Position numbers and translations under genes: made by a program
The notes under the pieces: generated by a model
What the model was told of the DNA's origin: nothing
Databases searched by the model: none
The model's input: the letters and a program-made list of their open reading frames with translations, nothing else
In this document: one piece after another, positions 25,103-44,284 of the stretch
Position numbering within the stretch: the first letter of the stretch is position 1
Layout of the letters: each line of letters begins with the position of its first letter
Assembly (NCBI GenBank): GCA_024102915.1
Contig: JAGFJG010000075.1
Span: 1-64,000, forward strand
Direction of reading: 5' to 3'
Length of the DNA stretch: 64,000 nt
DNA from: Caldilineales bacterium
GTDB lineage: Bacteria; Chloroflexota; Anaerolineae; J102

Positions 25103-26104
25103 TCAATTATCTCCGCCTGCCAAAACCTTCCTCACACGCCGAAACTCCACAGATAGTTTTCTTGCAGCCTTCCGGACAAAGCGCACATACTCTTGTGATG
25201 AGCGTAAAGCCAGGTTTGTTTGTATGTTTTCCTGGTCATCAGATGCAGGTCTCCTCAATTCAGCCAAAACATGGTCGGAAATGACTAAACCCAGCTTCGA
25301 TCCCAGGAAACTCAACAATTCAGCCAGGTAGAGCGATTGATTGCGCCGGCGACTCTGCGATATCACATAATCCCAATTCAAATCCTTCGCATTAGTCAGG
25401 ATTAACCACATATGCGTCAACCAGCGCAATGTCGGCCAGCCATGACCGGCTAATCCATATTCCAGCCAGAACAAAATCTGGTCGGCAGGATCGAGCATGA
25501 ATATGGTCAGGCCTTGCGACGATATCTCATGTGACGAATTCCAATGGCGTTGATCAACGCTAAGTCTTTCCGCTGGAGACAGTCCATGAACGATGCGATC
25601 ATGCATGCCAATGTATAGCCCGTTCTCCTTGCAATAAATGACCGCATCCGCGGCCCTGGAAACGATCTGCCAGCCAAGTCCAGTCAAGATCTCCTCAACA
25701 CTCTTCACCTGTCCCGGCCTGATGAGCAGTTCCACATCATCTACGGGGTAAATAACTATACCGTCACGTAACTGGCTAATCGCTAGGTTTCCGCCAATCA
25801 ATTGGAAGTCGTGTGCGGCGGTTTGTAAAGCAAGCAGGGCATCGCGGTATTGCTGCCGTGCAAGTTGATTGGCGTACCAGGTGCGACGGTAAATGCCACG
25901 CAGCCGCGGCGTCAATTCATCCTCAATCTCCATTGCCTGAAGGTTGTCATACAACAACGGCAACAGGCGGTATGATTCATAGTCAATATCGTCAAAGGGG
26001 ACGAGCGACTTCCATTTGGCGTAGGCGCGGATGGCAGGGTCACCCCGCAAAAACGCCGCCTGCAGCACTAGCTCATGCTCAGGCCTTAGATAGTTTGCGT
26101 CCAT
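25103..26104 (-). CDS. Nucleotidyltransferase-family protein (NTP_transf_5-like)
   Basis: A 333-residue protein resembling the uncharacterised nucleotidyltransferase family seen in exopolysaccharide loci. The diagnostic stretch is IGGNLAISQLRDGIVIYP followed by VDDVELLIRP (about residues 103-130), equivalent to the usual G-A-x-L and RxxDDIDLLV motif, though the first Lys-Gly is changed to Gly-Gly. A second motif, WFLEYG-like (ILFWLEYGLAGHGW), follows. In other genomes this family travels with an HprK-related kinase and a PqqD-like protein, and both are present in this locus. The ATG lies inside the end of the upstream gene (19-bp overlap). It is the last gene of the minus-strand glycan cluster. 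Confidence 0.72.
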   Translation of the reverse strand: MDANYLRPEHELVLQAAFLRGDPAIRAYAKWKSLVPFDDIDYESYRLLPLLYDNLQAMEIEDELTPRLRGIYRRTWYANQLARQQYRDALLALQTAAHDFQLIGGNLAISQLRDGIVIYPVDDVELLIRPGQVKSVEEILTGLGWQIVSRAADAVIYCKENGLYIGMHDRIVHGLSPAERLSVDQRHWNSSHEISSQGLTIFMLDPADQILFWLEYGLAGHGWPTLRWLTHMWLILTNAKDLNWDYVISQSRRRNQSLYLAELLSFLGSKLGLVISDHVLAELRRPASDDQENIQTNLALRSSQEYVRFVRKAARKLSVEFRRVRKVLAGGDN

Positions 26105-26979: not shown

Positions 26980-27899
26980 CCGAAATGCCGCATCAATTCG
27001 CGCGCCTGACGACGTCCGATAGATAGATCGTGTTTCGATCTGCGCCGCAATCGATGGAATTCCAGGCCGACGGCATTGCCGACCAGCGACTGTAAGCGAC
27101 GAACGCGCCCGGCTGGTATGCGGGAGTAGTAAAGCCGTTCATAGAAGTCGAGTACATGCGGCTGCGGCATATGCCGGAACAGGTGCGTTTTGCTCCCCGC
27201 CCAGTGCAAGACGATTGGGACTCCCTCACCCGTCATCAGTTCGGGTTTGATCACCAGGTGGGGATCTCCCGCCCACCACATGAAGCTTCTCCCTGCCAAA
27301 GCGAGCTGACCGTTCTGCCATTTCTTGAGTACGACATAGTTGAGCAAGCCCTGATCAGAAGCAAAAAACACATCAGGATACAAGAGTTCCTGCGGTTCCC
27401 CGTCACTCAGCCAGGGGGAAAAATCCTGTCGATTTATTAGCCCGGTTGATGTGACATATTGGCCGGAATTGAAGGCGTTCCCACGGTATGCGAATTCTGG
27501 GTCTAGACTCTTGAGTCGATCGAGATCGAAGAAGAATGCTGCTACATTTTCGGGAGTGTCTGATTCGTTGATAACAAAATCCGACTCGATCGATTCCAAT
27601 CTGTCGAGCACTCTGCCCAGAAACACGGTATCGCTGTCAAGGATGAAGCACCGTTCCACCCGGTCCTGCACCAAAGGTTCGAGTTTGGCCAGACCGCCAC
27701 TAAACCTGCGTCTCGGCATTTGGAAACAATCGACATCCCAATACCGTTCGATTTCAGATGTGTCGTAGACGCCGTTGATTTCGTTCTTGACCAGCGAAAT
27801 GGGGATATCCGGATACCAACGCCGGACGCTGGCGATGCAACAGCGTGTGTATCGCAGATCGCCACGATGACTGGCGACGTAAATACGCTCGATCTTCAT
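26976..27899 (-). CDS. Glycosyltransferase with DSD motif (GT8-like), paralogue 1
   Basis: A 307-residue homologue of the following gene: start MKIERIYVASHRGDLRYTRC, DSD motif in FILDSDTVFLG (about 90-98), then AFNSGQYVTSTGLI and SDQGLLNYVVLKKW. Divergence is even along the length, so both copies are probably active. It follows a 76-bp gap after the large membrane glycosyltransferase gene in the same direction. Confidence 0.78.
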   Translation of the reverse strand: MKIERIYVASHRGDLRYTRCCIASVRRWYPDIPISLVKNEINGVYDTSEIERYWDVDCFQMPRRRFSGGLAKLEPLVQDRVERCFILDSDTVFLGRVLDRLESIESDFVINESDTPENVAAFFFDLDRLKSLDPEFAYRGNAFNSGQYVTSTGLINRQDFSPWLSDGEPQELLYPDVFFASDQGLLNYVVLKKWQNGQLALAGRSFMWWAGDPHLVIKPELMTGEGVPIVLHWAGSKTHLFRHMPQPHVLDFYERLYYSRIPAGRVRRLQSLVGNAVGLEFHRLRRRSKHDLSIGRRQARELMRHFG

Positions 27900-27975: not shown

Positions 27976-29571
27976 TCATGGTGGGTCTTTGCGCATGAGG
28001 ACGGCGATATTCTGTTCTCGATTTTCCAGTATCTTCTCCCAATGTTCATTGAATCCGCCGCCCATCCAAAGAATATCCACGAGATCAACCCAATCGACGA
28101 TATAACGAGCAGGCGTACTGAGCACATAGTCCTCAGTCTGTCCGGTAATACGTGCTTCCAGAGCAGCGGGGTCGACTTTACCATCCAGATTGATGGTGCG
28201 CTCATGAAAGTAACCCAACGTTCCAGTCTGGATTGCAGCCACCCAGACATCATCTGGAACATTTTCCTCCACCCATTCAATGACCTGAAAATGCATATGA
28301 TAGTCGCCCCATGTGTAAGCCTGGATATTCATGTGCACGACGATTAGGGTCAAAAAGGCGGGCAGGATGACCGCCACTCGGCCAAGCGGAATCCGCCACA
28401 GAAAACGCATGACGTAAGCTGCAAGACCAATAGTAAGAATCACAAACGAAGGTGAGAGAGGCGATAGGAAACGACTCAGAAACCAGGGGGCATTGAAAAA
28501 TAGACCGTAGAATATGCATATCGTCATAGTGAAGACGCCGGAAAGTGATAGAAAACGGAATCCGTCGGAATCGCGTTGTCGATAGAGCCAGCCGACCGCC
28601 AAGGCAAAAGCTCCGGCGATGATCAGAAAACCAAACGTCGATAGCGGAGAATCTTCCACCTTGGGGTCTATGTCGTAGATGACAGTGATATACTCGACGA
28701 GTTTTGCCGGAACGAATCGGAGATTTGCTGCGAAATGGATGGGATATCCTTCGGCAATGCCGCTATTGGGGACGATGTGACCGAAGTTGAGTTTGTTATA
28801 GATCAACCACGGGGCTGCAATCGCCAATGTTGTGAATCCGACCAGCAGCAGTTCGGTCACCACGCGTGATGGGGATCGGTCTCTGTCGAGTCGTGCCAAT
28901 AGCGTCCATGCGATACCAATCGCAGCCGCCAGCAAAACGGCGTCGTTGCGAATCCAAAACGCCAGCCCCAATAACAAACCCATAAGTAAAGCGTAATGGA
29001 GTCTTTCCCGCCGGTCATACCAGACAAGGAAAACGAACATGACAACGGTGACGATCAATAAATAGGCGCCAGTTTCCTGGGCATTCATCGTATGCCTGAT
29101 CAGGGGCGGGGAGGCGTACCAAAGCAATGCAGCCACAGCAGCCAGGTATGCAGCCCCTGGCAGCGGCTTATAGACTCGTCGTCCCAATAGAAAAATCACC
29201 CAGGCGGTAAGGCTGCTGATCACAATGGAGGCGATCAGAACCAGCCGGACGCCGGCGACCTTATCTCCGCCCGACAGTTTATATAAAACCGCCCACAACA
29301 TCGTCACCAATGGCTGCGTTCCATTCGTGGCAACCGCGCCATCAGAGACGGTCATGCCCTTACCAATGGCGATATTGCGGGCAATCGTGAGCATAAGATA
29401 CCCGTCTTCCGCAGGAAATTGCCGCAGCAAACGACCATCCCGGTCGAGCACTGGGGCGGCGCGAGCGATCAGCCCTGTTAGGAACAGGCATAGGAGAAGA
29501 CCCAGCAGGAGAACGCGCCAGGTTAGTCCACGTGGTTGAGTCACTCTGCCGGTGTGATCAGAAATCGCCAT
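27976..29571 (-). CDS. GT39/ArnT-like polytopic membrane glycosyltransferase
   Basis: A 531-residue protein with 11 to 13 predicted helices. The first periplasmic-type loop carries FPAEDGYLMLTIARNIAIGK, the acidic motif region of lipid-phosphate-sugar-dependent glycosyltransferases (GT39/GT83/PMT class). A soluble C-terminal domain (about 440-531) follows, with WVAAIQTGTLGYFHERTI. It probably transfers a sugar from a polyprenyl-phosphate donor on the outer face of the membrane. The ATG at 29571 is preferred, since the longer frame to 29661 would overlap the preceding gene by 68 bp and adds an unconserved basic extension. Confidence 0.8.
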   Translation of the reverse strand: MAISDHTGRVTQPRGLTWRVLLLGLLLCLFLTGLIARAAPVLDRDGRLLRQFPAEDGYLMLTIARNIAIGKGMTVSDGAVATNGTQPLVTMLWAVLYKLSGGDKVAGVRLVLIASIVISSLTAWVIFLLGRRVYKPLPGAAYLAAVAALLWYASPPLIRHTMNAQETGAYLLIVTVVMFVFLVWYDRRERLHYALLMGLLLGLAFWIRNDAVLLAAAIGIAWTLLARLDRDRSPSRVVTELLLVGFTTLAIAAPWLIYNKLNFGHIVPNSGIAEGYPIHFAANLRFVPAKLVEYITVIYDIDPKVEDSPLSTFGFLIIAGAFALAVGWLYRQRDSDGFRFLSLSGVFTMTICIFYGLFFNAPWFLSRFLSPLSPSFVILTIGLAAYVMRFLWRIPLGRVAVILPAFLTLIVVHMNIQAYTWGDYHMHFQVIEWVEENVPDDVWVAAIQTGTLGYFHERTINLDGKVDPAALEARITGQTEDYVLSTPARYIVDWVDLVDILWMGGGFNEHWEKILENREQNIAVLMRKDPP

Positions 29572-29593
29572 GTCCAATAATGACCGTTTTCGC

Positions 29594-30823
29594 TCAGCCT
29601 TGAACGACGGAAGTCGTCGGTAACTCGGCAGGCGCGAGCAAGGGACGGAATTGTCTGCCAACTCTACGGCTCAGCGCCATAAATGGCTTCTCGAACAACA
29701 CAAAAAGCACGGCGGATATCACAAGGATGGCCGGGATCAGAAGAAGGCATTGCAACATGAAATCATAGCGGAGAGGGCGATCAGGCGAAGCAAGCTGCAT
29801 CGTCCAGGGAGCCAGCAGGTCGATGATCAGAAAATGGTAGAGATAGATGGTGTAGCACATGCCTCCGATCACGACGATCCAGCGCTGCCGGATAAAGAAC
29901 TGTCCCACCAGGCCCAGGAAAAGTCCGGCGTACAGGAGCATGATGAGGATTGGCGTCAGAAAATAAAGGTCATATCGGCGGGTAAGAATGGCGAAGATGC
30001 TCACGCCAGCAAAGATCGTCAACGCATCCCAAAGAAATCTGCGCCGAAACCCTCGCGCCGCGAACTCATGATACAGATCGGCCAGCAAAAAGCCTGCGAG
30101 GAAGAACTGCAAGTAGTGTAGGACGGTTATATCAAGACGCGGGTGTTGACCCGCCTGGAAAAATCGACCCGCCCAGTATGCCTGGGCCAAAACGATTGTC
30201 AGCAAAAGGAGTCGCCGCAGGAGGGCGGATCGCACAACGAAGATGAAGGCAAGCAGCGGCATGATCAAATAGAACTGCACTTCTACTTCCAACGACCAGG
30301 CCACGCCGTTGATCCAGCTCGCCTGTCCGAAGATGGGCCCATGCAGATAGGTGAGGCTGGCGGGATAGTGAGGGAGGAAGGTACGCCAGCCTGGGTTTGT
30401 CAGGATGATGATCAGGAAGGCAATGGTGATGTTGATAAGGTAGGGCGGTTCCAGCCTTATCAGTCTGCGCAGATAGTAAGAGCCCAAGTGTGGGCGAGGC
30501 TTTTGCAGGCGATAGCTGCGCACATAGGGCAAGGCCAGGATGAAGCCGCTGATCACAAAAAACAACTGGACGCCGAAATGACCAGCATACCCAAGCATGA
30601 TCACGCCCGATCGGGAAAACACGTCCCACCATTGGGCGGGCAAATCGACGACGCCTAACCTCTGTGTAGTTCGCAAATAAGAGGCAGTGATGTGGTGGAG
30701 GACGACGGCGGTGATTGCGATGAAGCGCAGGCCATCCACTTCTGGGATGAATTCGCCGGACGAAGTCGTGCGCGAAAGACGCAGCAACAGGCGCTCGTTG
30801 AGCCTCGACAATCTCTTATGCAT
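29594..30823 (-). CDS. Membrane O-acyltransferase (acyltransferase 3 family)
   Basis: A 409-residue integral membrane enzyme with about ten helices. The family signature FIPEVDGLRFIAITAVVLHH lies at about residues 22-43, with the catalytic His in VLHHI. Later hallmark segments are FGVQLFFVISGFILALPY and LEVEVQFYLIMPLLAF. These proteins O-acetylate surface polysaccharides, which fits the Wzm/Wzt locus around it. The start overlaps the upstream glycosyltransferase by eight bases. Confidence 0.9.
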   Translation of the reverse strand: MHKRLSRLNERLLLRLSRTTSSGEFIPEVDGLRFIAITAVVLHHITASYLRTTQRLGVVDLPAQWWDVFSRSGVIMLGYAGHFGVQLFFVISGFILALPYVRSYRLQKPRPHLGSYYLRRLIRLEPPYLINITIAFLIIILTNPGWRTFLPHYPASLTYLHGPIFGQASWINGVAWSLEVEVQFYLIMPLLAFIFVVRSALLRRLLLLTIVLAQAYWAGRFFQAGQHPRLDITVLHYLQFFLAGFLLADLYHEFAARGFRRRFLWDALTIFAGVSIFAILTRRYDLYFLTPILIMLLYAGLFLGLVGQFFIRQRWIVVIGGMCYTIYLYHFLIIDLLAPWTMQLASPDRPLRYDFMLQCLLLIPAILVISAVLFVLFEKPFMALSRRVGRQFRPLLAPAELPTTSVVQG

Positions 30824-33800: not shown

Positions 33801-33863
33801 ACCCGCGGTTGCGATCGTGCAAATTGCCCGCGACCCTGTTGCATCGATAGGTCTTATAGCCAT
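30816..33863 (-). CDS. Three-domain glycosyltransferase (GT-A + GT2 + GT4-like)
   Basis: A 1015-residue multidomain enzyme. Domain 1 (about 10-290) is GT-A type with the DGD of LCYFDGDIYFF and HGVYNGGFIGL. Domain 2 (about 325-560) is GT2: CLVSVIIPAYNAGRYLAAAI, then IIIDDGSEDD and AFLDADDWFL. Domain 3 (about 700-1000) is GT-B/GT4-like: GFLHNPPNMPDWF, LFCLSEYLAAWWRE, VLKHPTDE and a donor-site segment NNVVIECIARATPILVNPLP. Three sugar-transfer centres on one chain suggest processive addition of a fixed oligosaccharide unit (inference). The ATG at 33863 shares its A with the upstream TGA (TGATG). A start seven codons earlier is possible. Confidence 0.85.
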   Translation of the reverse strand: MAIRPIDATGSRAICTIATAGYLRQAACMLNSYLQHHPGESCYILCVDEPQPEPLLDRPGITRLSLADMRIAGLAGMHARYNLFELCNALKPFLLDHLFRTTGIDHLCYFDGDIYFFDSMQSSVWDELQQRNILITPHLIRLPDNDRDLIWRDLAVLQHGVYNGGFIGLRRSEDVDRFLHWWGDRTRHLGKKKLEEGLNCDQRWLDLLPGFDLNYRISNHPGLNAAYWNLHERTYAERDGHFYVNGQPLIFYHFSGYSSEKPDSITSHFTHFDFAQRPDLRPIFTTYHRDLMGDAGTHQIGSEPVRRSQPVPPRLQPLTPAGPPTCLVSVIIPAYNAGRYLAAAIESVLAQTLDDLEIIIIDDGSEDDTVEIAAGFVTVHRDRIRLIRQTNAGVSAARNCGIQAARGEYVAFLDADDWFLNPTKLADQSVILSARTEVGIVHSGWRLVDETGGLLAERRPWLQAPNLDLKVWLLWQPALPSAMMVRRQTLLNIGGFDPSLAHAEDFDLALRITEAGFETVWLKEVTVAYRQHERNATRRLAETEADVETVLARFFSRPSLAEDVRRLAPRVRFGVLCWLGLQYYRHGALADMARLLQKTLSLGLFASPSAYFEAWLDSFEYTLRTEFGEGLDVYALTSAAEWRTLVKTQLIGQSLNEYGGVEFSVGLSMAPHVKIRPEQSLSVTDSSLPALLNEPKLNLSGALARDYGRHRSGWSFAMRSLASLHRDDGIWVEPFPEHTFGEDKAGRQQPHTRPWIGFLHNPPNMPDWFVYNQSPQSLLANQSFQQSLPHCLGLFCLSEYLAAWWRERLDAPIAVLKHPTDESAQCFSFERFTTNPQKRIVQIGAWLRKLNSIYYLPVGRLRRAIVHQHRPYIDELTARERTVFGLRPDETLVEILPFLDDDAYDELLASNLVYMELYDSSANNVVIECIARATPILVNPLPAVVEYLGKDYPFYFVNREQAARKAEDIALIEQTHRYLLTHPLRPNLTSKAFLQAVASSSIYEQLKVDSSPDDA

Positions 33864-35149
33864 CAGCCCGATTCCGTCGTCCATTGCAGAAGCGGGCGCA
33901 CAAACCCCGGTATATGCCCCGCATAGTCGCCACGCGCCGTGATGGTTTGTTCGTCATTCAGCGGCGGATCGGTGAGCAACAAGGAAATGACCCGCGACTC
34001 ATCGACATGCTTTTTCCACGGGGAAAAGGATTGGATGCCGACGCCAACCGAAAGCGGGCCGTCGGCAAAGAGATGGGCAGGAAGCGAAGCTGTGCTGCGG
34101 TAGCGTCCGGCCGGTCGGGGACGGCGATGCCAGGGTGAGTCCACCTCGAATGACCAGAACAGGCAGGCGCCTTCGGCATTGCAGAATTCCAGCCTGGGCA
34201 CAATGATATGTCCATCTGTGAGGACATCGAAGGAAAGCTCGACGTTGAAAGGCCGCCCGACATCGCTGACATCGAGATCACCGCCCTGTTCGCCGACAAA
34301 ACGAATACTGCGCAGACGCACGTCATCGTCTCCCGGCGCAATCGCGATGTCGTCCCAGACACGTCGCGAGGGCGACTCCGGATCGGAATCGAGATAGGCC
34401 GAGACGGCGAGATGTGCGTCGCCATCATAGCGAACCTCACCCGCTTCCAGCCACAAAGCCCGCTGGCTGAGTTGAGGAACAACCTGCATGCTATGAGTGA
34501 CAAAGACGACGGTGCGACCGCTTTGCCCGATCTGGCGGATTCTATCCTGGCAACGGCGCTGGAATTCGGCGTCGCCCACGCCCAATGCTTCATCAATGAA
34601 GAGGATTTCTGGCTGCAAACTGGAAGCGATCGAGAAAGCCAATCTCAGGTACATGCCGCTGGAATAGAACTTGACCGGCATGTCGATGAATTTCTCGATA
34701 CCGGAGAAGTCGACGATCTCGTCGAATTTCTGGCGGATTTCCGCCCGCGACATGCCCATGACCGCACCGCTGAGAAAGATGTTTTCACGCCCGCTCAATT
34801 CGGCATGAAAACCCGCCCCGATCTCAAGCAGGCTGCCGGAGTGGCCGTAGAGCGCCACATGACCCTCCGTGGGCCACGTAATGCGCGAGAGTATTTTGAG
34901 CAGTGTCGATTTGCCAGCCCCATTGCGGCCAATGATTGCCACAACTTCGCCAGGATGCACCTGAAAATTCACATTGCGAAGCGCATAGAACGACCGCTCG
35001 ACCTCTTCGTTGGCGCTGCCGCGTCCGAGCAAGCGTCTGACAGGCTGCGCCGAACGCAAGCTGGAAGCCAGGGAATCGCGTAAGGTCAGGTAGCGCGGCG
35101 CGCTGACGCCAAAGTTGTAACGTTTACTGACGTTCTCGACCAGGATCAT
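33863..35149 (-). CDS. wzt: Polysaccharide export ABC ATPase, Wzt-like, with C-terminal domain
   Basis: A 428-residue ATPase of the O-antigen/teichoic-acid exporter type. Walker A is IIGRNGAGKST (about 72-82), followed by the family's LSGRENIFLSGAVMGMS, signature SSGMYLRLAFSIASS and Walker B ILFIDEALGVGD. Residues about 265-420 form a beta-rich C-terminal domain like the Wzt carbohydrate-binding domain that recognises the modified chain end. It follows the permease gene with a 46-bp gap. The exported glycan is therefore probably finished in the cytoplasm, then exported through Wzm/Wzt. Confidence 0.9.
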   Translation of the reverse strand: MILVENVSKRYNFGVSAPRYLTLRDSLASSLRSAQPVRRLLGRGSANEEVERSFYALRNVNFQVHPGEVVAIIGRNGAGKSTLLKILSRITWPTEGHVALYGHSGSLLEIGAGFHAELSGRENIFLSGAVMGMSRAEIRQKFDEIVDFSGIEKFIDMPVKFYSSGMYLRLAFSIASSLQPEILFIDEALGVGDAEFQRRCQDRIRQIGQSGRTVVFVTHSMQVVPQLSQRALWLEAGEVRYDGDAHLAVSAYLDSDPESPSRRVWDDIAIAPGDDDVRLRSIRFVGEQGGDLDVSDVGRPFNVELSFDVLTDGHIIVPRLEFCNAEGACLFWSFEVDSPWHRRPRPAGRYRSTASLPAHLFADGPLSVGVGIQSFSPWKKHVDESRVISLLLTDPPLNDEQTITARGDYAGHIPGFVRPLLQWTTESG

Positions 35150-35195: not shown

Positions 35196-36068
35196 CTACA
35201 GATAATCGGCAAGGTATTTCTCCATGCGCACAAAGAGAACGCTTCCCGTAAGCAAGAAGACGCCGCAAAGCAGCATGGAGACGCCAAGATGAGACCAGGG
35301 AATAGGCAAGCCCAAAAACACGGCTCGAAAGGTTTCGACCAGACCGGTGACAGGGTTCAACGTCAGCAGCCATTGCCATTCGGGCGGCACGATCGTGCGG
35401 GCGTAGATCACGGGCGTCAAGAACATCCATAATTGCAGAATCAGGGGCAGCGCCTGGCGAACATCGCGGTAGATCGTATTCAGCGCTGCGAAGTTGAGAC
35501 CGATGGCAAAAACCAACAAAGCCAGACAGGCGATAACTATAGGCAGCAAGGCCAGTTGCCACGTGAAAGGGAAACCGTAGATGACCAGGAGCACGAACAA
35601 TAAACCGCAGCCGACGGCCATATCCACCAGGCCGGCCAGAGTAGTGGCGCTGGGCAAGACAAGCCGCGGGAAATAGACCTTGGAAATCATGCTGGCATGA
35701 CTGACCAGGCTGTTGCTGGCATTGCTAATGCCGATCGAGAAGAAGGTCCAGGGGACAAGGCCGGACAATACGAATATCGCGTAGGGAACTTCGCCGACCG
35801 GCACCTTGAGAAACTGGGTGAAAATCAGCGTGAATACCAACATGGGGCCGAGCGGTTGCAGGATCGCCCAAAACACACCCAGAAATGTCTGCTTATAGCG
35901 CACCTTGATATCGCGTTGCACCAACAATAAAAGCATGTCACGATGACGCCACAGCCCAGCCAGGTCGATCTCATGCCATTTCTTCGACGGCGTGATGTCA
36001 ACGACAGGTTGCCCGGTGAAGGGTCTGTCTTTGGTGAAATTGTCGCCTTGCGGCGGTACCAGTTGCAT
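35196..36068 (-). CDS. wzm: Polysaccharide export ABC permease, Wzm-like
   Basis: A 290-residue ABC-2-type permease. A short cytoplasmic amphipathic segment (KKWHEIDLAGLWRHRDMLLL) precedes VQRDIKVRYKQTFLGVFWAI, the family signature. About six membrane helices follow, including GLVPWTFFSIGISNASNSLV and a LNPVTGLVETFRAVFLG periplasmic-type loop. It is the membrane partner of the ATPase encoded next. Confidence 0.92.
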   Translation of the reverse strand: MQLVPPQGDNFTKDRPFTGQPVVDITPSKKWHEIDLAGLWRHRDMLLLLVQRDIKVRYKQTFLGVFWAILQPLGPMLVFTLIFTQFLKVPVGEVPYAIFVLSGLVPWTFFSIGISNASNSLVSHASMISKVYFPRLVLPSATTLAGLVDMAVGCGLLFVLLVIYGFPFTWQLALLPIVIACLALLVFAIGLNFAALNTIYRDVRQALPLILQLWMFLTPVIYARTIVPPEWQWLLTLNPVTGLVETFRAVFLGLPIPWSHLGVSMLLCGVFLLTGSVLFVRMEKYLADYL

Positions 36069-36086: not shown

Positions 36087-37184
36087 TCAGGCAGGCACGG
36101 AGATTTCTGAGCAATGCAAACGCGTGAGTGTGGCTTCGTGACTTTGCCAACGCACCATGCGATTGAAGAAAACAGAGTCCCACTCGTCGGCAAAGCGCTT
36201 GCCCACGCCCTCTTTATCGTAAATGTTTTGGACGGTGGCGACAAAACGCTGGCGGTGCTCTGCCACTTTGGCCAGTGTGCGTTGACGAATGATCGCCGTA
36301 TCGGGTTGACGTCTCACCATTTCCTCCACACCCGCAGCCACGGCTTCAGGCGTTTCGTCGACAATCAAAGTGCAGGAATCGTCGAAGAAGAGATCACGAC
36401 CGCCCTTGCTCGGTGTGGATACAACGGGCAGGCCAGCCAACAGATATTGGATACTGGCGTAGTTGGCGTCTTCGATGGCCGAGAGACAAAGCCCGACCCG
36501 GCACTCGTCCAGGCAGGCGTTCACTACGGCGTCTTCCAGATTGACGTACTCGCCTGCAGGATTGCGATTGAAAAGATGGGCGTGATCAAAGTCGCCCAGA
36601 ATGCGAGCCGCTGTTTCGGGGTCATCGATCCCCGGCGTCACTGCGTAAATGAGGGCCAGATCGTCAAGACCGGATGCAAGCCGGTGTCGTTTGTAGTCTT
36701 TCAGGCGAGCGTCGTAGACGGCGTCGAAACGTTTGGGCGTGTCAGGTAAGGGCCGGTAGATGCGTTCGTCGATCAGGGCGTTATGGCTGCATAGAATCGC
36801 TTCCAATCCTGCCGTGTGAAAGGATTCAAGTTGAGAAACCGAATTGCAGAGATGGATGAAGCGATGACCGGGATACTTGCGTTTATGTTGGTGTTCGTAT
36901 CGGTACACCCAGGCAACGCGTTCGGGTTCATCGATATGCCACTGCCAGATCAAAATAAAGAAGGCGCGTTCTGCCGCCAAAGAACCGTAGAGTTGTTCCA
37001 TCGGGTTGGTGAAACGCAAATCCTCATCCAACCATTGTGCGACGACGAAGATGGGCGGGCTGGCGCACACAAGTCCGTAGGCTGCATGGGTTGAGTCAGG
37101 CGAGAGATAACGTACTGTCAGGTCATCTCCTCGTCCGTCAATGTTGCGTCGGGAAAAGCGCCTGAGCAGCGCCAATGGGTTCAT
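36087..37184 (-). CDS. GT4-like glycosyltransferase
   Basis: A 365-residue GT-B enzyme. The N-terminal half has VAQWLDEDLRFTNPMEQLYG and HLCNSVSQLESFHTAGLEAI. The C-terminal half has VGLCLSAIEDANYASIQYLL, then AGLPVVSTPSKGGRDLFFDD, the usual donor-binding E/GGR region of GT4 enzymes. The ATG at 37184 is chosen to avoid a 70-bp overlap with the preceding gene; the frame is open upstream. It lies between the TPR-glycosyltransferase gene and wzm. Confidence 0.8.
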   Translation of the reverse strand: MNPLALLRRFSRRNIDGRGDDLTVRYLSPDSTHAAYGLVCASPPIFVVAQWLDEDLRFTNPMEQLYGSLAAERAFFILIWQWHIDEPERVAWVYRYEHQHKRKYPGHRFIHLCNSVSQLESFHTAGLEAILCSHNALIDERIYRPLPDTPKRFDAVYDARLKDYKRHRLASGLDDLALIYAVTPGIDDPETAARILGDFDHAHLFNRNPAGEYVNLEDAVVNACLDECRVGLCLSAIEDANYASIQYLLAGLPVVSTPSKGGRDLFFDDSCTLIVDETPEAVAAGVEEMVRRQPDTAIIRQRTLAKVAEHRQRFVATVQNIYDKEGVGKRFADEWDSVFFNRMVRWQSHEATLTRLHCSEISVPA

Positions 37185-37227
37185 GCAACGTGATTCCTGG
37201 AAACCATGATCAGCGACATCGAAAGCG

Positions 37228-39933
37228 CTAATAATCCTGATATCCGTGTGCAACTGCCTGCGCATAATATTCAGCCGCCTCTTCGATCTGTCCCGCACCT
37301 GTCAGCAGGTCGCCCATCTGTTTGTAAAGGGCAGGCTGATTGGGATCGAGATCAAGTGAGCGTCGATACGCTTTCACCGCACCATCCATCTCACCCTGCG
37401 TCAACAGCAATGCGCCAAGCTGCAAATGATAGTCGATCTGTTCGCCATCAAGTATGATTGCCTGGCGACAGCAGGCGATAGCGTTGGCGAGGTCGTTATT
37501 TTTCTGTAAAATCTTTGCCAAACGGAAATACGTGTCAGCATCATCAGGCCGAACCTGTAGGGCAAGCTGGTAATAGAAAATAGCCTTGGTACGCTGATTT
37601 TGTCTTGCCAGGGCATCGGCGAACTGAATGCAAAGGTCAGGATCGGGCGGGTGCAGATCGCTGGCTTCATGGTAAATATTGATATCGTCGGGAACAAGCG
37701 CATTGGCCTGACCATACCATTTCTGCGCCTCGCACACGAGTTCTTTGGCCTGACTTGAGAGTGCGCGGGCGAGTTGGCGGGCAGCGTTGGGCAAGTCGGC
37801 CTGCAAAGCCAGGGCTTGACGATAGCGCTCTGCCGCGTCGGGCCACCGTTCCTGTTGCGAATACACTTCGCCTAGATTGAAATGAGATGCGGCGAAATGA
37901 GGATTCAGTTCGATGGCGCGTTGATAGGCGTCAATCGCTTCCGGCCACTTCCTTTGCGCCATGTATGCGTCACCCAGATAATGGTACGACCAGGCAAAGC
38001 CGGGCGCTTCGGCGATAGCCGTCTCGAAACCGGCTACAGCTTCGCTCCACCTGCCTTGCTTCAACAGATTCACCGCCAATGCGTATGGGTGGTCTTTTTG
38101 CGATTTCTGCGCTTTGATCATGCTGCGCACCTGGCGCAACAGTTGCGATTTTTCGTCGGGCATGGGCGCCTCCGGGCGGGCGAGCGTTGATTCGGATGGC
38201 GGATGCGTAGACAACGGATGCAATAAACCCATGGCTGCCAACTGCGAACTGTCCTTGTAGACCACCGAAAGAGCCGGGTCGAATAAGCAAAGATCGGGAT
38301 GAGAACGTAGGGTCTGGGCATAGGCGTCATACTGTATCCCGCCCTGCCAGTGCTCCCGGCGTTCCGCCTCCTGTTCCGCCTGCTGCACGAAATCATCGCA
38401 GAATTTGAAATGGAGCAGCGCCGCTGCCTGGATGGCCACATCGCGGCAGTTCGTCCAATGGAGATTGTCGCTGAGGACGAAAGTCGGGTCGTATTTCAGT
38501 AGCGGGATTTTGTTCAGACAATAGAAATAGCGCTCGTCTTTCCCTGGCTCGTGGCCGCCGAACACCCGCCGCCGCACGCCGCCGAATAGGCTGGGATGTT
38601 CGTCGTGTTCGTAAAAACGCTCGACCCTTTCGTGATAAACCTTGCGATCGAAATAGCGACAGGCATCGAGAAAAGGCTGATTGGCCTGCAATGTCGTCTC
38701 GCGAATCGGTCGGTCTGAATACATATCGATCATCAGGGCCATTGCCGCCCGATAACCGGACTGCTCCAACTCGGCGCATAAGGCGGGCAGAGATTTCGTC
38801 TCACTGTTCGGGTACACCAGCAACTCGTCGGCATCGATAACCAGGCACCAGCGATTCTGGCCATAAGTTCTGAGCAGCGACTCGGTCCAATCGGTGCCGC
38901 AACGCGATGCCCGAAATGAAGCCGGAGTGCGCCACACGTGCACATCGGGCTGCGCCAGGAGCCAATCGAGCGTACCATCTTCGGAGGCATTATCGACCAC
39001 GAAAAAGCGGGACACGCCCAGCCGCCGGTGGTAATCCAGATTGTGCGGCAGGCGTTTCGCTTCGTTGCGCACGACCATGAAGGCGACCACGGCTTCGTCG
39101 TGTAGGTCGATTGTTTTATCGTCGCAACGTTCGAGGTGTGGCTGCGATCCCCCACCGGCAGCCGCTTGCCCGGCCCCCTGATTTCTCTCCCAACCTTCCG
39201 CTTTCCCCCGGCCAATAAAATCGACCAACGACGGATAACCTGGTGGAGTATGCATCAAATCGGCGTTCCGGCGTCGCCGCTCGGCGGCTTTGCGATGGAC
39301 GCTCGCCATGCCGATATCGTGCAGGCTGCGGTCATGGGTTATGGATTGCGAGTGGATGCGATACATCAGTGTCGTGGCATCGATACGGCGTTTCGGAATT
39401 CGCAGGTCGTATGCGCGTATCCACCAATCGTAGTCATCGCATATTTGCGTCGCCGGATCAAACAGACCGACTTTTCCGAACACACCGCGACGAAAAAGAG
39501 CGCTGCCCAGGTTGACGTAGGCGTACGGCGAGCCGATCTTCGTCCAATCTTCCCCCTCACCCTGAAACTCTTGAATGCGCCCTTGCACGATGTCATTTTG
39601 CTCGTCCGCCAACAAAACGTGAAGCGCCTCTTGCACCGTGTCACTCACCCAAAGGTCATCGGCATCGACTAAACCGATCACCTCACCCCTGGCCGCCTCA
39701 AGCCCGCGATTGCGCGCCGCGGCGGGGCCGGCATTCGCCTGCGAGATCAGCCGCACGGTAGCGCCGAAGCTGGCGGCAATCTCAGCGCTTTTATCCGTCG
39801 AGCCGTCATCAACCACGATCACCTCGGCGGAAGGTATTCCCAACGCCAGGAGATTGGTCAGGGTTTCGGCCAGGTAGCATTCGCCATTGAAAACGGGGAC
39901 GATGACGCTAAGCTGGGGCAGGGCGGCTGTCAT
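37228..39933 (-). CDS. Dual glycosyltransferase with C-terminal TPR array
   Basis: A 901-residue fusion. Residues 1-240 are GT2 (LSVIVPVFNGECYLAETL, VIVVDDGSTDKS, GLVDADDLWV). Residues about 270-560 are a second GT2-like domain of the Glyco_tranf_2_4 type (VVAFMVVRNEAKRLPHNLDY, FFVVDNASEDGTLDWLL, CLVIDADELLVYP). From about 610 to the end there are at least seven TPR units (for example WPEAIDAYQRAIELNPHFAA and ADTYFRLAKILQKNNDLANA), probably a scaffold for assembling the other enzymes. The ATG shares its A with the kinase stop (TGATG), so it is translationally coupled to the HprK-like gene. Confidence 0.86.
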   Translation of the reverse strand: MTAALPQLSVIVPVFNGECYLAETLTNLLALGIPSAEVIVVDDGSTDKSAEIAASFGATVRLISQANAGPAAARNRGLEAARGEVIGLVDADDLWVSDTVQEALHVLLADEQNDIVQGRIQEFQGEGEDWTKIGSPYAYVNLGSALFRRGVFGKVGLFDPATQICDDYDWWIRAYDLRIPKRRIDATTLMYRIHSQSITHDRSLHDIGMASVHRKAAERRRRNADLMHTPPGYPSLVDFIGRGKAEGWERNQGAGQAAAGGGSQPHLERCDDKTIDLHDEAVVAFMVVRNEAKRLPHNLDYHRRLGVSRFFVVDNASEDGTLDWLLAQPDVHVWRTPASFRASRCGTDWTESLLRTYGQNRWCLVIDADELLVYPNSETKSLPALCAELEQSGYRAAMALMIDMYSDRPIRETTLQANQPFLDACRYFDRKVYHERVERFYEHDEHPSLFGGVRRRVFGGHEPGKDERYFYCLNKIPLLKYDPTFVLSDNLHWTNCRDVAIQAAALLHFKFCDDFVQQAEQEAERREHWQGGIQYDAYAQTLRSHPDLCLFDPALSVVYKDSSQLAAMGLLHPLSTHPPSESTLARPEAPMPDEKSQLLRQVRSMIKAQKSQKDHPYALAVNLLKQGRWSEAVAGFETAIAEAPGFAWSYHYLGDAYMAQRKWPEAIDAYQRAIELNPHFAASHFNLGEVYSQQERWPDAAERYRQALALQADLPNAARQLARALSSQAKELVCEAQKWYGQANALVPDDINIYHEASDLHPPDPDLCIQFADALARQNQRTKAIFYYQLALQVRPDDADTYFRLAKILQKNNDLANAIACCRQAIILDGEQIDYHLQLGALLLTQGEMDGAVKAYRRSLDLDPNQPALYKQMGDLLTGAGQIEEAAEYYAQAVAHGYQDY

Positions 39934-41072
39934 CACAGATGCTGTTTGAGAATATCATGCAGCGCCGGGGCGATGAGGCTGGTGTCGGCGGTGACGCCCA
40001 GCAAGTAGCATGGCAATTGTCGAGTCAGCCCGGACATGGCTTGCAGCGCCGCACTGCCGCTTCCCGTGAGCTGGAGGATGGTGGATTCGGCCAGCACTTT
40101 CAGGGCGCTGGCTGAGGAGACGGGGACGATCTTCGGCTCGGCCAGCTCGGGAATATAGCGCGGCAAAACGATGGCCTTTAGCGGAAATCCGGGGATGAGT
40201 TCAGCAGCATGATGCTCATGCAAAAACGCCATCGGCTTCTGCCCGTCCGCTTCCAATTTGTCCGGATTGATCACCCTGTCCGCCAACCAGGGAAAACGAG
40301 CGAAGTCATCCTTGCCCTTGACCTTGGCGGTGTTATAAAGGCTATGGACATAGGGCTGCGCCTCTGCCCGGTTCTCGACTAGACAGTAGTCGTCACCGAC
40401 GTAACGAAGATCCGATCCCAAACAGGCAAGGGCCGCCGTCGACTTGCCGGAACCACCCCGCCCGCCCAGGAGCAGCCCCCCCGTTGGCAGGCCGACGGCC
40501 CCGCCGTGGAGCACATGCAGCCCTGCGCTCTCGCACCACCAGGAAAGCAATGTGCGCAGCGGTGCGCCCGATTCGTACCAGGGAAAGGTGCGCCAATCGG
40601 GCGTCCACAAAATCCCCAGGTTCTGTTCCAGGTCGAGCAGATTGAGGATGTCCGTATCGTATCCTTCGAGAGCGCCGCGTAGATCGATATCGTTGAGATC
40701 CAGAATTTCGCCGCGGATACCGCGGTCTTCCAGCCAGGTGATGCGTAACAATCGCACGAGGCTGGCGGCCAGAAAGGGCAGAGGGCGACCGGTCGAGGCG
40801 CTGTCCCAAATGCTGATTGTTAATTCCGGCTGGGCATCGATGTCGGCGCGGAGATGAGCCAGAGCGCGGGTGACGCCGGGCATGAGCGCATCGCCAGCGA
40901 ATCTCAGCCTGATGACGCGACCGCCAATAATAAATCGCTGCTCGCACAGGCCCCCCGCCAGCATCGCGGCCTCGTCAAAGGCATCCCCCATGATGCGAAT
41001 CAAGGTTCGCCTGTCGGCCTTCAGCATCGAATCAAGCATCATCGCTTTTGGCGTGAGGCCAACCCTGCTCAC
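39933..41072 (-). CDS. HprK-related kinase of a PqqD-linked system
   Basis: A protein of up to 379 residues with an HPr-kinase-like C-terminal half. HVLHGGAVGLPTGGLLLGG leads into the P-loop GGRGGSGKST (203-212), then GSDLRYVGDDYCLVE, where the DD lies at the expected catalytic/Mg position. There is no HPr protein nearby. HprK-related kinases of this type occur with PqqD-like proteins and nucleotidyltransferases in exopolysaccharide loci, and a related kinase phosphorylates a lasso-peptide precursor in paeninodin biosynthesis (family knowledge). The 5' end overlaps the PqqD gene by 41 bp. Internal ATGs at 41042, 41039 and 41027 are alternative starts. Confidence 0.82.
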   Translation of the reverse strand: MSRVGLTPKAMMLDSMLKADRRTLIRIMGDAFDEAAMLAGGLCEQRFIIGGRVIRLRFAGDALMPGVTRALAHLRADIDAQPELTISIWDSASTGRPLPFLAASLVRLLRITWLEDRGIRGEILDLNDIDLRGALEGYDTDILNLLDLEQNLGILWTPDWRTFPWYESGAPLRTLLSWWCESAGLHVLHGGAVGLPTGGLLLGGRGGSGKSTAALACLGSDLRYVGDDYCLVENRAEAQPYVHSLYNTAKVKGKDDFARFPWLADRVINPDKLEADGQKPMAFLHEHHAAELIPGFPLKAIVLPRYIPELAEPKIVPVSSASALKVLAESTILQLTGSGSAALQAMSGLTRQLPCYLLGVTADTSLIAPALHDILKQHL

Positions 41073-41478
41073 CTACGTCGTGGATCGGATCAAGCAGGAG
41101 GAGTTCCTGCATGTCGTCGAAGCGCTCGAATCGCGGGCTGGTGTAGGGCTTTTTGCCCCCGTCCGGCGCAGGGGGTAAGGATGGTTTTCCTGTATTGTCC
41201 GCGCTCACCACGATCAGGTCTTCTTCAAGTAAGCCGGTAACAAGGTCGTTGGCATCGTTGATGATTTGCGCCAGGCTGCCATCATAGCGCTGCATGACGA
41301 TCTCAACCACGTCACCCAGGCTGTATCCCTGGTCGATCAGAGCCCATATCTCGGCGCCGATCGGGTCCAGGCTATAGTAGGCGCCGCTCTTGAGGTTGAT
41401 AAGGGCGGCTTCGCCATCTTCAAAGATTTCGTGAATGACATGGGGAGAATTGACGCGATAACTGCTTGAACTATTCAA
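41032..41478 (-). CDS. PqqD-family protein with leader-like C-terminal tail
   Basis: A 148-residue protein. Residues about 7-92 form a PqqD-type winged-helix, peptide-binding domain (VIHEIFEDGEAALINLKSG, then YYSLDPIGAEIWALIDQG). A Pro/Gly linker (93-109) leads to a tail, 110-148, containing PYTSPRFERFDDMQELLLLD and then PIHDVGEQGWPHAKSDDA. The YxxP near the tail start resembles leader motifs recognised by PqqD-type domains in lasso-peptide systems, so the tail may be a self-carried substrate (inference). The start is TTG at 41478, with GGAG 7 nt upstream. Its 3' end overlaps the HprK-like kinase gene, pointing to a joint function. Confidence 0.82.
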   Translation of the reverse strand: MNSSSSYRVNSPHVIHEIFEDGEAALINLKSGAYYSLDPIGAEIWALIDQGYSLGDVVEIVMQRYDGSLAQIINDANDLVTGLLEEDLIVVSADNTGKPSLPPAPDGGKKPYTSPRFERFDDMQELLLLDPIHDVGEQGWPHAKSDDA

Positions 41479-41541: not shown

Positions 41542-43530
41542 TCAGGCATTCATTGGGCGATCAGGATTGATCTTCGCCAGAATTTGGGCCGCCCGTTTCC
41601 AGGCCTGTAGTTGTGAGTTGAATTCATCGATCTGCGCCCAGAGCGCTCTCGTCTCCGCCGCGGAAAGAATGCCCAATGGGGCAGGATCGGTCAAGGTTGT
41701 AGAGCTGCTTTGGGTGCGCAACACTTGCTCGATTGCAATGACGATCTCTCGGCTTTGGGCCAGGGCCGTCGCGAAGTCATCTGCGAGCAGGCTGTCTCGC
41801 AGGATATCAACCGCCCAAATCATGGAACCTTTGAGGGCTGCTATGGACGTGGTTTCTTCGATGTAGGTGGGGAGATAGGCAGACGACAACTCGACGGAAC
41901 GGCGGCGGTCGGCCAGATCGGAGCCGTCCAATCGCAAGCGCGCCGAAGTCGACTTGTCATGTTGCCGCCAACAGGCCAAATTGGCCGGTTCGTACCAGAT
42001 CGGCCCCAGCACGGCCAGGCGTTTGTACATGTCCCAGTCGGCGCAATAGGGCAAACCCTGATGGTATCCGCCAATCGCTTCATAAGCGCGGCGGTGAACG
42101 ACGATACAGGGGGTGAGGATGCGCTGTTCAATCGCCAGTCGTTTTGTGAATTGCTGCAAAACGCCGGCTGTCTGACGCTCAGGCTCCTGCACCCACACTT
42201 TCTGACCTCGACCATCGATGCCTGTCCCTCGGCAAAATGCGGCAACCAGATCGGGTATGGTTTCGCAGGGTGAACGCATTTGTCTGTAAAATCCAACGAG
42301 AGGCAGATCGTCCTGATGGAGGAGATGCACCCATTCGCCTTTTGCTCTTTGCAGGCACTCGTTCCAATTGCGCGCCATTCCGATATTTTCGGGCTGGCGG
42401 TGGAATCCGATGCGCCCCTGCCCTACATCGGCTACGATTGCAGCCACATCGATGTCACTCGCATCGTCAACCACTTCGATCTGCATGTCGTCCGGCCCAG
42501 GCGACTGGGTCAAGAGACCGTTTAGGGTTTGGCACAGCAGCGATGGATCAGGGTTGTAGGTCGGGATCATTACGGACCAGAACGGCCTGCGTTCGTCGGA
42601 AACGCGCGCGATGTCGGGAATGGCGCCGCCTTGCGACACTTTGAATTCCTGTAAAAGCATGCGTCCGTTGCTGCGCACTTGCATCGACCTTGTCGATTTG
42701 TCAGGGTTCACCTCGACGTTGGGAGCGAGGATTGGATCGCTCACCCAGAAATGGCGTCGCCAGGGCGAGGATTTATCGAAGGATTCGGAGCCGTTGAGGT
42801 GTTTGAGTGCGGCACGCGAAGGCCAGGAGAAATCGCCCCCATTCAGTTTCACCCGGTCGCTGTGCCATTGACGTGCACGCTCATCGGCGGCAAAGACCCT
42901 GGAACCATATTTGGCGTGAGCGTGGGCGCGGCTCAGGAAAATGTAGTGGCGTAGGATAAAGGGCTGAGGATAGACTCGCCGCCCAGGGAAGATGACCTGG
43001 TGTCCAGCATGGGTGTGCAGGTCAATTTCAGGTTGATTCTTCCAGGCGTTGATGCGATAGCGGTCGGGCGAGCCCGGCTCGAAGTAGTAGTACCATCGCA
43101 TTCCGGCCACAAAGTCACGCCCTTCGTACGATTCTTCATCTGACGCGGGCACGAACACGAACTCGTCGAAATCGATGGCGTTGTAGCCTGCTTCATCGAC
43201 CGCTACGATTGCCTGATGAAGCGACTTATAGGGCGGGGGCGCTTCCCGAATTTCATCGGCGTCGAGGTGGATGAACCAATCCGCTCCGATTTCGGTCGCC
43301 AATCGCTCTTTATGTCTGAGCTGGTCTTCCAGGCTGAATTCGCCTGTAAAGGGTATGCGTTCTATGTGGAAAACGCCACGTCCTCGAAATGATTCAGCTA
43401 TTTCGAGTGTGTCGTCAGTCGAATCATGATCTACCAGGCAGGTCTCGACCCCTTGCTCATAGAGATGCTGGAGACAGCGACCCAGTACCTTGTCTTCGTT
43501 TCGCACAGTAAGTAGTGCAACGACTCGCAT
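41542..43530 (-). CDS. Two-domain GT2-type glycosyltransferase
   Basis: A 662-residue enzyme. The first domain (about 1-290) is Glyco_tranf_2_4 type: MRVVALLTVRNEDKVLGRCL, CLVDHDSTDDTLEIAE and WFIHLDADEIREAPP. The second (about 315-560) is GT2: WSVMIPTYNPDPSLLCQTL, then VVDDASDIDVAAIV and EWVHLLHQDDLPLVGFY. The C-terminal 90 residues are helical. The ATG at 43530 follows the previous stop by four bases. A start ten codons earlier would overlap it. It lies between the first glycosyltransferase of the locus and the PqqD gene. Confidence 0.83.
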   Translation of the reverse strand: MRVVALLTVRNEDKVLGRCLQHLYEQGVETCLVDHDSTDDTLEIAESFRGRGVFHIERIPFTGEFSLEDQLRHKERLATEIGADWFIHLDADEIREAPPPYKSLHQAIVAVDEAGYNAIDFDEFVFVPASDEESYEGRDFVAGMRWYYYFEPGSPDRYRINAWKNQPEIDLHTHAGHQVIFPGRRVYPQPFILRHYIFLSRAHAHAKYGSRVFAADERARQWHSDRVKLNGGDFSWPSRAALKHLNGSESFDKSSPWRRHFWVSDPILAPNVEVNPDKSTRSMQVRSNGRMLLQEFKVSQGGAIPDIARVSDERRPFWSVMIPTYNPDPSLLCQTLNGLLTQSPGPDDMQIEVVDDASDIDVAAIVADVGQGRIGFHRQPENIGMARNWNECLQRAKGEWVHLLHQDDLPLVGFYRQMRSPCETIPDLVAAFCRGTGIDGRGQKVWVQEPERQTAGVLQQFTKRLAIEQRILTPCIVVHRRAYEAIGGYHQGLPYCADWDMYKRLAVLGPIWYEPANLACWRQHDKSTSARLRLDGSDLADRRRSVELSSAYLPTYIEETTSIAALKGSMIWAVDILRDSLLADDFATALAQSREIVIAIEQVLRTQSSSTTLTDPAPLGILSAAETRALWAQIDEFNSQLQAWKRAAQILAKINPDRPMNA

Positions 43531-43534
43531 GGAA

Positions 43535-44284
43535 TCAGAAAATCTCCTCGATCGGTGCATGGAGACGCTGCTCTCCGCGTTGCCCGGTCACGCGGCCAAG
43601 CGCATTCGCTCCTTTTTGGCGTTCAATTGAGCGCTTCACCGTTTTCAGCAGTTCCCGATTATTCAATGCGATATCGAATGAAGCATTGTTTCCATGAATG
43701 CGCTTATACAGCAATGTCCGCGCCAGCACTTCCATCGGCACGTCTAGATGTCGGGCGCGGCTAAACCAATCCACATCCTCGGCCAGTTGCAATCTGGTAT
43801 CAAACAAACCGACCTTATCCCAAACCGAACGTCGGGCCACAAGCGTTTCCATAATCAACGCTGTATATTCGCCGTTCAACAATTCAGGCCGGAACCCAGG
43901 AGGTGGGCACTCATCCGATTCCAAGATGAACCGAACTCTACCGACCGTATAAAGGAGTTGCGGATGCACCAGCATATGACCGATCTGCACCTCCAGCTTG
44001 TCTGGCGTCCAGAAGTCATCGCTGGATAGGAAGGCCGTGAACTCGCCTCGACTGGCGCGAATGCCGGTGTTATAGGCGTCTGCGATGCCCGAACCCTTTT
44101 GTGTGATGATGCGCGCCTCTGCAAAAGAACCGGCGATTTCCTGCGTGCGGTCCCGAGAATTTCCATCGACAATGATCAATTCAAGCGGGCGATACGACTG
44201 ATCGAGAATGCTCTGGATAGCCTCAGCTATGTATTTTTCGCCGTTCTTGACAACGACAATTGCACTCACAAGGGGTGAAGTCAT
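43535..44284 (-). CDS. GT2-family glycosyltransferase (first gene of the glycan locus)
   Basis: A 249-residue single-domain GT2 enzyme: PLVSAIVVVKNGEKYIAEAI, LIIVDGNSRDRTQEIA, GEFTAFLSSDDFWTPDKL (the DxD equivalent is SDD) and LAEDVDWFSRARHLDVPMEV as the acceptor/catalytic Asp region. It is the first gene downstream of the promoter at 44328-44357 and opens the 14-gene minus-strand cluster. Confidence 0.88.
   Translation of the reverse strand: MTSPLVSAIVVVKNGEKYIAEAIQSILDQSYRPLELIIVDGNSRDRTQEIAGSFAEARIITQKGSGIADAYNTGIRASRGEFTAFLSSDDFWTPDKLEVQIGHMLVHPQLLYTVGRVRFILESDECPPPGFRPELLNGEYTALIMETLVARRSVWDKVGLFDTRLQLAEDVDWFSRARHLDVPMEVLARTLLYKRIHGNNASFDIALNNRELLKTVKRSIERQKGANALGRVTGQRGEQRLHAPIEEIF

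Follow-up and report, generated by a model that had tools for sequence, protein, structure and literature searches.

The window analysed here, a stretch of 64,000 nucleotides from a Caldilineales bacterium, encodes a small protein in which a PqqD-type peptide-binding domain is followed, on the same chain, by a C-terminal tail resembling the leader of a peptide precursor. The question raised by this locus is what such a tail is for, and whether it is a leader with a short core peptide of its own, which a neighbouring HprK-like kinase could modify, as had been proposed from the sequence alone.

A PqqD domain with a leader-like tail

The open reading frame is as that sequence-only reading described it, with 148 amino acids encoded on the minus strand and a PqqD domain, a Pro/Gly linker and a tail in this order (Table 1); the numbering Y112-x-x-P115 is also right, provided that the TTG start is M1. 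The sequence past the linker reads KPYTSPRFERFDDMQELLLLDPIHDVGEQGWPHAKSDDA, with Y112-T-S-P115 followed by DDMQELLLLDPIHDVGEQGWPHAK. The PF05402 match scores 52.6 bits against a cut-off of 23.4 and, together with the RRE fold, places the protein in the class of RRE/PqqD-like peptide-binding domains. No NCBIfam model scored above its cut-off for this protein, the best being lasso_PqqD_Bac with 42.7 of 80 bits. Its nearest solved sequence is TbiB1 (5v1u, E 1.9e-8), and other lasso B1 proteins are also near.

Table 1. Features of the window from the tail-protein gene and its surrounding cassette, with genes listed in cassette order and the segments of the tail protein below their gene.
Feature	Positions	Strand	Evidence
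GT2 glycosyltransferase	43535..44284	-	Pfam; 268.5 bits to cassette GT2 profile
Two-domain GT2 glycosyltransferase	41542..43560	-	Pfam
PqqD-tail protein, 148 aa, TTG start	41032..41478	-	Pfam PqqD, AF2, Foldseek
PqqD/RRE domain, aa 23-89	41212..41412	-	PF05402 match
Pro/Gly-rich linker, variable, aa 90-111	41146..41211	-	~0.9 bits/column over aa 90-110, 83 homologues
Leader-like segment, aa 112-123, YTSPRFERFDDM	41110..41145	-	P115, D122, M123 invariant; AF2 111-120
Conserved, putatively presented segment, aa 124-141, QELLLLDPIHDVGEQGWP	41056..41109	-	LLL, DPIH, GW invariant in 83 homologues
HprK/PEPCK-fold kinase (predicted), 379 aa, GTG start	39933..41072	-	P-loop, H189, D227, K279; AF2/Foldseek
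GT2 / Glyco_tranf_2_4 / TPR fusion	37228..39936	-	Pfam
Probable GT-B glycosyltransferase	36087..37298	-	Weak Glyco_trans_1 matches
ABC-2 polysaccharide-type exporter permease (Wzm-like)	35196..36068	-	PF01061 64.8 bits
Polysaccharide-type ABC ATPase (Wzt-like)	33863..35149	-	PF00005 74 bits
GT2-containing protein, 1022 aa	30816..33884	-	Pfam
Membrane acyltransferase (Acyl_transf_3)	29594..30823	-	Pfam
PMT_2-type protein mannosyltransferase-like membrane protein	27976..29661	-	Pfam
307-aa and 297-aa proteins, consecutive	26976-27899 and 26086-26979	-	No Pfam match
Nucleotidyltransferase NTP_transf_5 (PF14907)	25103..26104	-	Pfam 74.1 bits; cassette NTase profile 186.9 bits

The AlphaFold2 (AF2) model, built on an alignment of 69 sequences, has a mean pLDDT of 87.8. 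The two blocks covering residues 101-120 average 91 and 97, the latter value belonging to residues 111-120, which contain a strand at 117-120. The top Foldseek match of the model is TbiB1 with the TbiA leader (5v1v; TMt 0.90, E 8.8e-6), and RRE-bound leaders are known to add a fourth strand next to strand 3 (PMC5067487). This mode of binding, taken with the ordered strand, leads us to infer that the leader-like stretch is probably docked in the groove of its own RRE. The expectation that the tail would be predicted to dock in the PqqD groove thus holds for the order of its leader part, with the groove as the likely partner, and not for the rest, since residues 121-148, which carry the DPIH..GWP segment, are loose (pLDDT 55-68). 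No relative was found when the tail profile was compared with PDB sequences (best Tektin-3, E 1.7), and a BFVD fold search matched nothing.

Conservation and distribution of the tail

Over 83 aligned homologues, mean information is 3.42 bits per column in residues 112-141, 2.04 in the PqqD domain and 0.89 in the linker, and no other part of the protein is as well conserved as the tail. P115, D122, M123, L126-L128, D130, P131, I132, H133, G139 and W140 are invariant in this set, which was retrieved with the pattern LLL[LM]DPIH[DE] and retained by similarity, so that the conservation of those columns is partly selection; the consensus is [FY]xxPxLxKY[TS]DMxxLLLLDPIH[DE]VDExGWP. Because of this choice, the searches were repeated free of the pattern, with a shortened tail profile (A6) ending before the LLL..DPIH stretch and with a kinase profile, and both again recovered the same tail, plus variants (LLMADPLHDVDEFGWP, LLQLNPIHDVSEEGWP, IMTMDPVHEVDPDLGWP and LLLADPIHEVKEETGW). 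The possibility that the tail might prove variable among homologues, which would have spoken against a functional role, is therefore not what we find. As had been noticed, the tail opens with a YxxPxL motif of the leader type. YxxP is the recognition motif of lasso peptide systems (PMC12710340), and its proline, here in Y112xxP115, is invariant in the 83 homologues. A conserved Thr at the penultimate leader position, as in lasso precursors, is not present; residues 126-129 are LLLL.

The partial order predicted for the tail would also fit a tail that simply extends the PqqD fold and has no role of its own. We give this very little credence, since most of the invariant residues lie in the stretch 121-148, which is predicted to be loose, and tail-less PqqD proteins (open frames of 93-135 amino acids) co-occur in tail-bearing genomes.

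Two further forms of the tail were recovered. The first has an LLALDPPMP....PW core after an intact leader, and is sited in locus L192 (genome G305) and at about 9150-9700 (+) of L190 (genome G763). The second belongs to small-genome members of the cyanobacterial phylum that, by size and sequence, resemble Gastranaerophilales, and in which the tail reads EYxDAQELLLADPIHEVKEETGW[TS]PEK, having lost the YxxP proline and kept DPIHEV..GW. In these lineages (L188, L189 and L205-L217) the PqqD-tail proteins have a conserved extension past GW[TS]PEK.

No Ser, Thr, Tyr or Cys of the tail is invariant among the 83 homologues. Position 121 is Thr or Ser in 76 of them and was considered as a universal phosphosite; it was rejected, as the window carries Asp there and some others Asp, Ala, Val, Gly or Glu. 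A Thr or Ser at this position would fit a helix cap equally well.

Searched with the tail only, 100 related genomes yielded eight copies, distributed over five of them; one is a second copy in the genome of the window (contig C133). The alignment of these eight tails, searched against one genome per species (84,980 species), gave 162 confirmed loci, of which 80 were kept and read. All 80 encode the tail, preceded by an intact PqqD domain in 79. The remaining locus (L032), at first a candidate lone tail, reads as a frameshifted PqqD remnant, and no stand-alone tail was found among the 80. According to the record titles, with those of MAGs accepted as given, these loci come from Chloroflexota, Cyanobacteria, Bacteroidota, Ignavibacteriae, Acidobacteria, Nitrospirota, several delta-, gamma- and alphaproteobacterial lineages, Verrucomicrobia, Lentisphaerae, planctomycetes, Gemmatimonadetes, Bacillota, Actinomycetota, Aminicenantes and Bipolaricaulota, a spread of about 15 bacterial phyla. 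The plasmid search gave one full-length match, on pCRI9333.04, a mobilizable plasmid of Crinalium epipsammum PCC 9333. This plasmid carries a copy of the cassette, whose genes are annotated there simply as PqqD family protein, nucleotidyltransferase family protein, HPr kinase, FkbM methyltransferase, glycosyltransferases and ABC transporter.

Among 9,510 small open reading frames within 6 kb of the loci, no separate motif-bearing precursor was found; the two motif matches were the tail frame of L032 itself and one chance frame. This result bears on the idea that the tail is a pseudosubstrate, which would occupy the groove until it is displaced by a separate, unlinked precursor. A leader-like stretch predicted to dock in order is what such a plug would look like, but no second motif-bearing precursor lies within 6 kb and conservation is highest in the segment that follows the groove motif, and we hold this idea to be quite improbable.

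The window's genome contains two other arrangements of PqqD proteins. One (L129:5119-5646 (-); contig C35 at about 57118-57645) is a fusion in which the PqqD domain is followed by a Tat-like signal (TRRQALKWIGG..AQA) and a Cys-rich C-terminus (CTTSNECASGCCKKSGAGENTC), and looks like an RRE joined to a secreted Cys-rich peptide. The other (L130:3796-7950 (-); contig C167) is a separate RiPP-like cluster with a possible 66-aa precursor ending in GGGGICT, a radical SAM/SPASM protein, a 100-aa PqqD protein, an HprK-related protein, an S26-like peptidase and an NTase-like protein.

The kinase and the probable glycan cassette

The adjacent gene, which overlaps the tail gene by 41 bases in the window and frequently abuts or overlaps it across loci, was taken in the sequence-only reading to encode an HprK-like kinase. 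Its product matches Hpr_kinase_C only weakly (18.6 bits, under the cut-off). The AF2 model has a pLDDT of 92.0, and its top Foldseek matches are phosphoenolpyruvate carboxykinases (PEPCK; E 1.3e-10). By this predicted fold and its P-loop the protein belongs to the HprK/PEPCK kinase superfamily, and the residues invariant in its family include a GxxGxGKS P-loop, H189, D227 and K279; the P-loop Lys/Ser, His189 and Asp227 suggest kinase activity.

The kinase nearly always accompanies the tail. Where at least 6 kb of downstream sequence was available (58 loci), it is found in 54, GT2 glycosyltransferases in 53, an NTP_transf_5 nucleotidyltransferase in 48 and an ABC transporter in 35; sulfotransferases, NDP-sugar epimerases, GT4 enzymes and methyltransferases are other frequent neighbours. 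In 400 genomes of the window's phylum (thresholds of E < 1e-5 for the tail and E < 1e-60 for the kinase), the tail occurs in 7 (weak matches with E values of 0.003-0.1 were taken as chance), the kinase in 6 and both in 6 (p 1e-12), and in 292 genomes of the cyanobacterial phylum, that of Oscillatoria PCC 10802, the same eight of eight carry both (p 8e-16), these p values ignoring the relatedness of the genomes. Four genomes whose loci have no adjacent kinase were checked: it is encoded elsewhere in three (L085, L079 and L080), and the fourth (L050, in genome G488) has the tail and no kinase match.

Gene fusions join the same partners. Sixteen loci encode the kinase joined to one or two GT2 domains, and two lineages have it fused to PqqD-like domains. 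In the Gastranaerophilales-like genomes its C-terminus is a PqqD-like domain of its own, followed by a degenerate strand without DPIH..GW, and its gene adjoins the tail gene; the lineages with the extended tail listed above carry this diverged version. In genome G763, a single polypeptide (L191:7174-9120 (-)) contains PqqD and the tail (LLLLDPVHEVDAAAGWP), followed by a second PqqD-like domain and then by the kinase. The second PqqD-like domains were identified by inspection of the sequence and not by profile search. The tail therefore need not be a free C-terminus, and the kinase of these lineages itself carries an RRE-type domain.

The absence of an invariant hydroxyl residue makes a docking motif the main rival to a tail that is acted upon. 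The DPIH..GWP tail would, itself unmodified, recruit the kinase, the glycosyltransferases or the exporter to the PqqD domain. This is possible, if distinctly short of an even chance: it agrees with the near-invariance of the tail across phyla, the missing conserved nucleophile, the strict company of the kinase and the internal position of the tail in G763, but it leaves the cargo of the PqqD domain unexplained, as the groove is predicted to be filled by the protein's own tail and no other motif-bearing precursor lies nearby.

The window cassette runs from 44284 to 25103 on the minus strand, in the order of Table 1, and reads as an export-linked glycan cluster. The product of the gene at 37228-39936 has three fused parts, two domains of the glycosyltransferase-2 type and a TPR array. 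The probable GT-B product clusters with GT-like genes beside the tail gene in L055 and L084. For the putative exporter, the best NCBIfam match of the permease is galactan Wzm/RfbD and the ATPase matches Wzt/TagH-like models, all under their cut-offs, and polysaccharide-type ABC exporters are encoded in both the window and the L195 cassettes. Pfam detected no B2 protease, lasso cyclase or other peptidase in the window cassette, and no radical SAM protein was found there. In related loci, the lasso peptidase, the lasso cyclase and leader peptidases are absent from the 25 commonest families of 98 neighbours.

These genes weigh on the classical RiPP model, in which the C-terminal segment would be a core peptide, modified and then cleaved from the chain for export in free form. 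The RRE, the YxxP leader, the exporters and enzymes of the tailoring type are all there; the lasso peptidase and cyclase are missing from the window cassette and from those 25 families, the core hardly varies, and the tail is internal in G763. We regard this model as unlikely.

Relation to known systems and a possible role

Pairs of PqqD and HprK-type proteins are already known from lasso K genes, HPr-rel-A and SynChlorMet. The lasso B1 proteins TbiB1 and PadeB1 share the PqqD/RRE fold and bind a motif like the [FY]xxPxL segment; here, in contrast, the leader is on the same chain and neither a B2 protease nor a cyclase accompanies it, and lasso leaders differ also in their conserved processing Thr and in their cores, which are not nearly invariant as in this family. 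In pseudomycoidin, PsmK phosphorylates the C-terminal Ser of the lasso peptide and PsmN, a nucleotidyltransferase-like enzyme, adds hexoses (PMC9266682). Paeninodin and pseudomycoidin (PadeK, PsmK, PsmN) resemble our loci in placing a kinase and a nucleotidyltransferase-type enzyme in a peptide-modifying cluster. PadeK/PsmK-type kinases act on the C-terminal Ser of a separate lasso precursor, whereas our loci lack both an invariant Ser and the lasso enzymes and encode several GT2 enzymes. HPr-rel-A (TIGR04352/TIGR04353) and SynChlorMet (ScmC/ScmD) also pair a PqqD-like protein with an HprK-related one, but the window kinase scores 26.7 bits against the HPr-rel-A cut-off of 200, the window PqqD protein has no TIGR04353 match and reaches 25 bits against 100 with the ScmD model, and the window cassette has no detected radical SAM protein.

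In borosins, the precursor is fused to its modifying methyltransferase. They likewise join a substrate peptide to a protein of its own pathway in a single chain, although the fused partner here is a binding domain and not an enzyme, with the exception of G763, where the kinase is on the chain.

The earlier interpretation thus survives in its leader motif, its conserved tail and its kinase partner. Its placing among lasso peptides does not, as we found neither a B2 protease nor a lasso cyclase nor a conserved Thr for leader processing, and its short released core is weakened because the core is nearly invariant and the tail internal in G763. In the literature we found no report of the tail motif and no relevant fusion of an RRE to a precursor; the combination of an in-cis leader, an invariant presented segment and a set of GT2, NTase and exporter genes is not described in what could be searched.

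The explanation that we put first, at about even odds, is that this widespread family consists of single-chain RRE-plus-leader proteins, each serving a cassette of kinase, nucleotidyltransferase and glycosyltransferase as its dedicated client, be it a substrate or a scaffold. The PqqD/RRE domain would grip its own C-terminal [FY]xxPxLxx[YF] in the peptide groove, where a lasso B1 protein grips a separate leader, and would so display the DMxxLLLLDPIH[DE]VxxxGWP segment in fixed register. The HprK-like kinase, NTP_transf_5 and the GT2 enzymes would act on the displayed segment, perhaps by covalent modification, or assemble at it, and the resulting phospho- and/or glyco-product, possibly a glycoconjugate, would be moved out by the ABC exporter. 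This explanation draws on the fusion itself, the conservation of the tail, the near-obligatory company of the kinase, the gene fusions and the lack of a separate precursor near the loci, along with the predicted ordered docking of residues 111-120. Its closest experimental precedent is pseudomycoidin (PsmK and PsmN; PMC9266682). A substrate or scaffold kept on the chain is favoured over a released peptide because there is no lasso protease or cyclase, the core barely varies and the tail lies mid-chain in one lineage. Against the client explanation stand the lack of an invariant Ser, Thr, Tyr or Cys for an HprK-type kinase, the near-invariance of the presented segment, which is also typical of docking motifs, the Gastranaerophilales-like tails without the YxxP proline, and G488 without a kinase match.

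More tentatively, and with the odds against it, the protein could be a ribosomal scaffold of a new class, in which an RRE with its leader in cis displays the near-universally conserved DPIH..GWP as the covalent primer of an exported phosphoglycan made by the HprK-like kinase, NTP_transf_5 and GT2 enzymes, in about 15 phyla and on at least one mobilizable plasmid.

RiPP clusters are found through RREs by seeking a nearby precursor. Where the leader and a conserved segment are on the RRE itself, such searches would see a RiPP cluster lacking a precursor. The cassette system reaches the Gastranaerophilales-like lineages as well as the culturable cyanobacteria Oscillatoria sp. PCC 10802 and Crinalium epipsammum PCC 9333, and its RRE-tail protein, kinase, nucleotidyltransferase, glycosyltransferases and exporter form a compact, testable set in which peptide recognition of the RiPP type may be coupled to the assembly of glycans.
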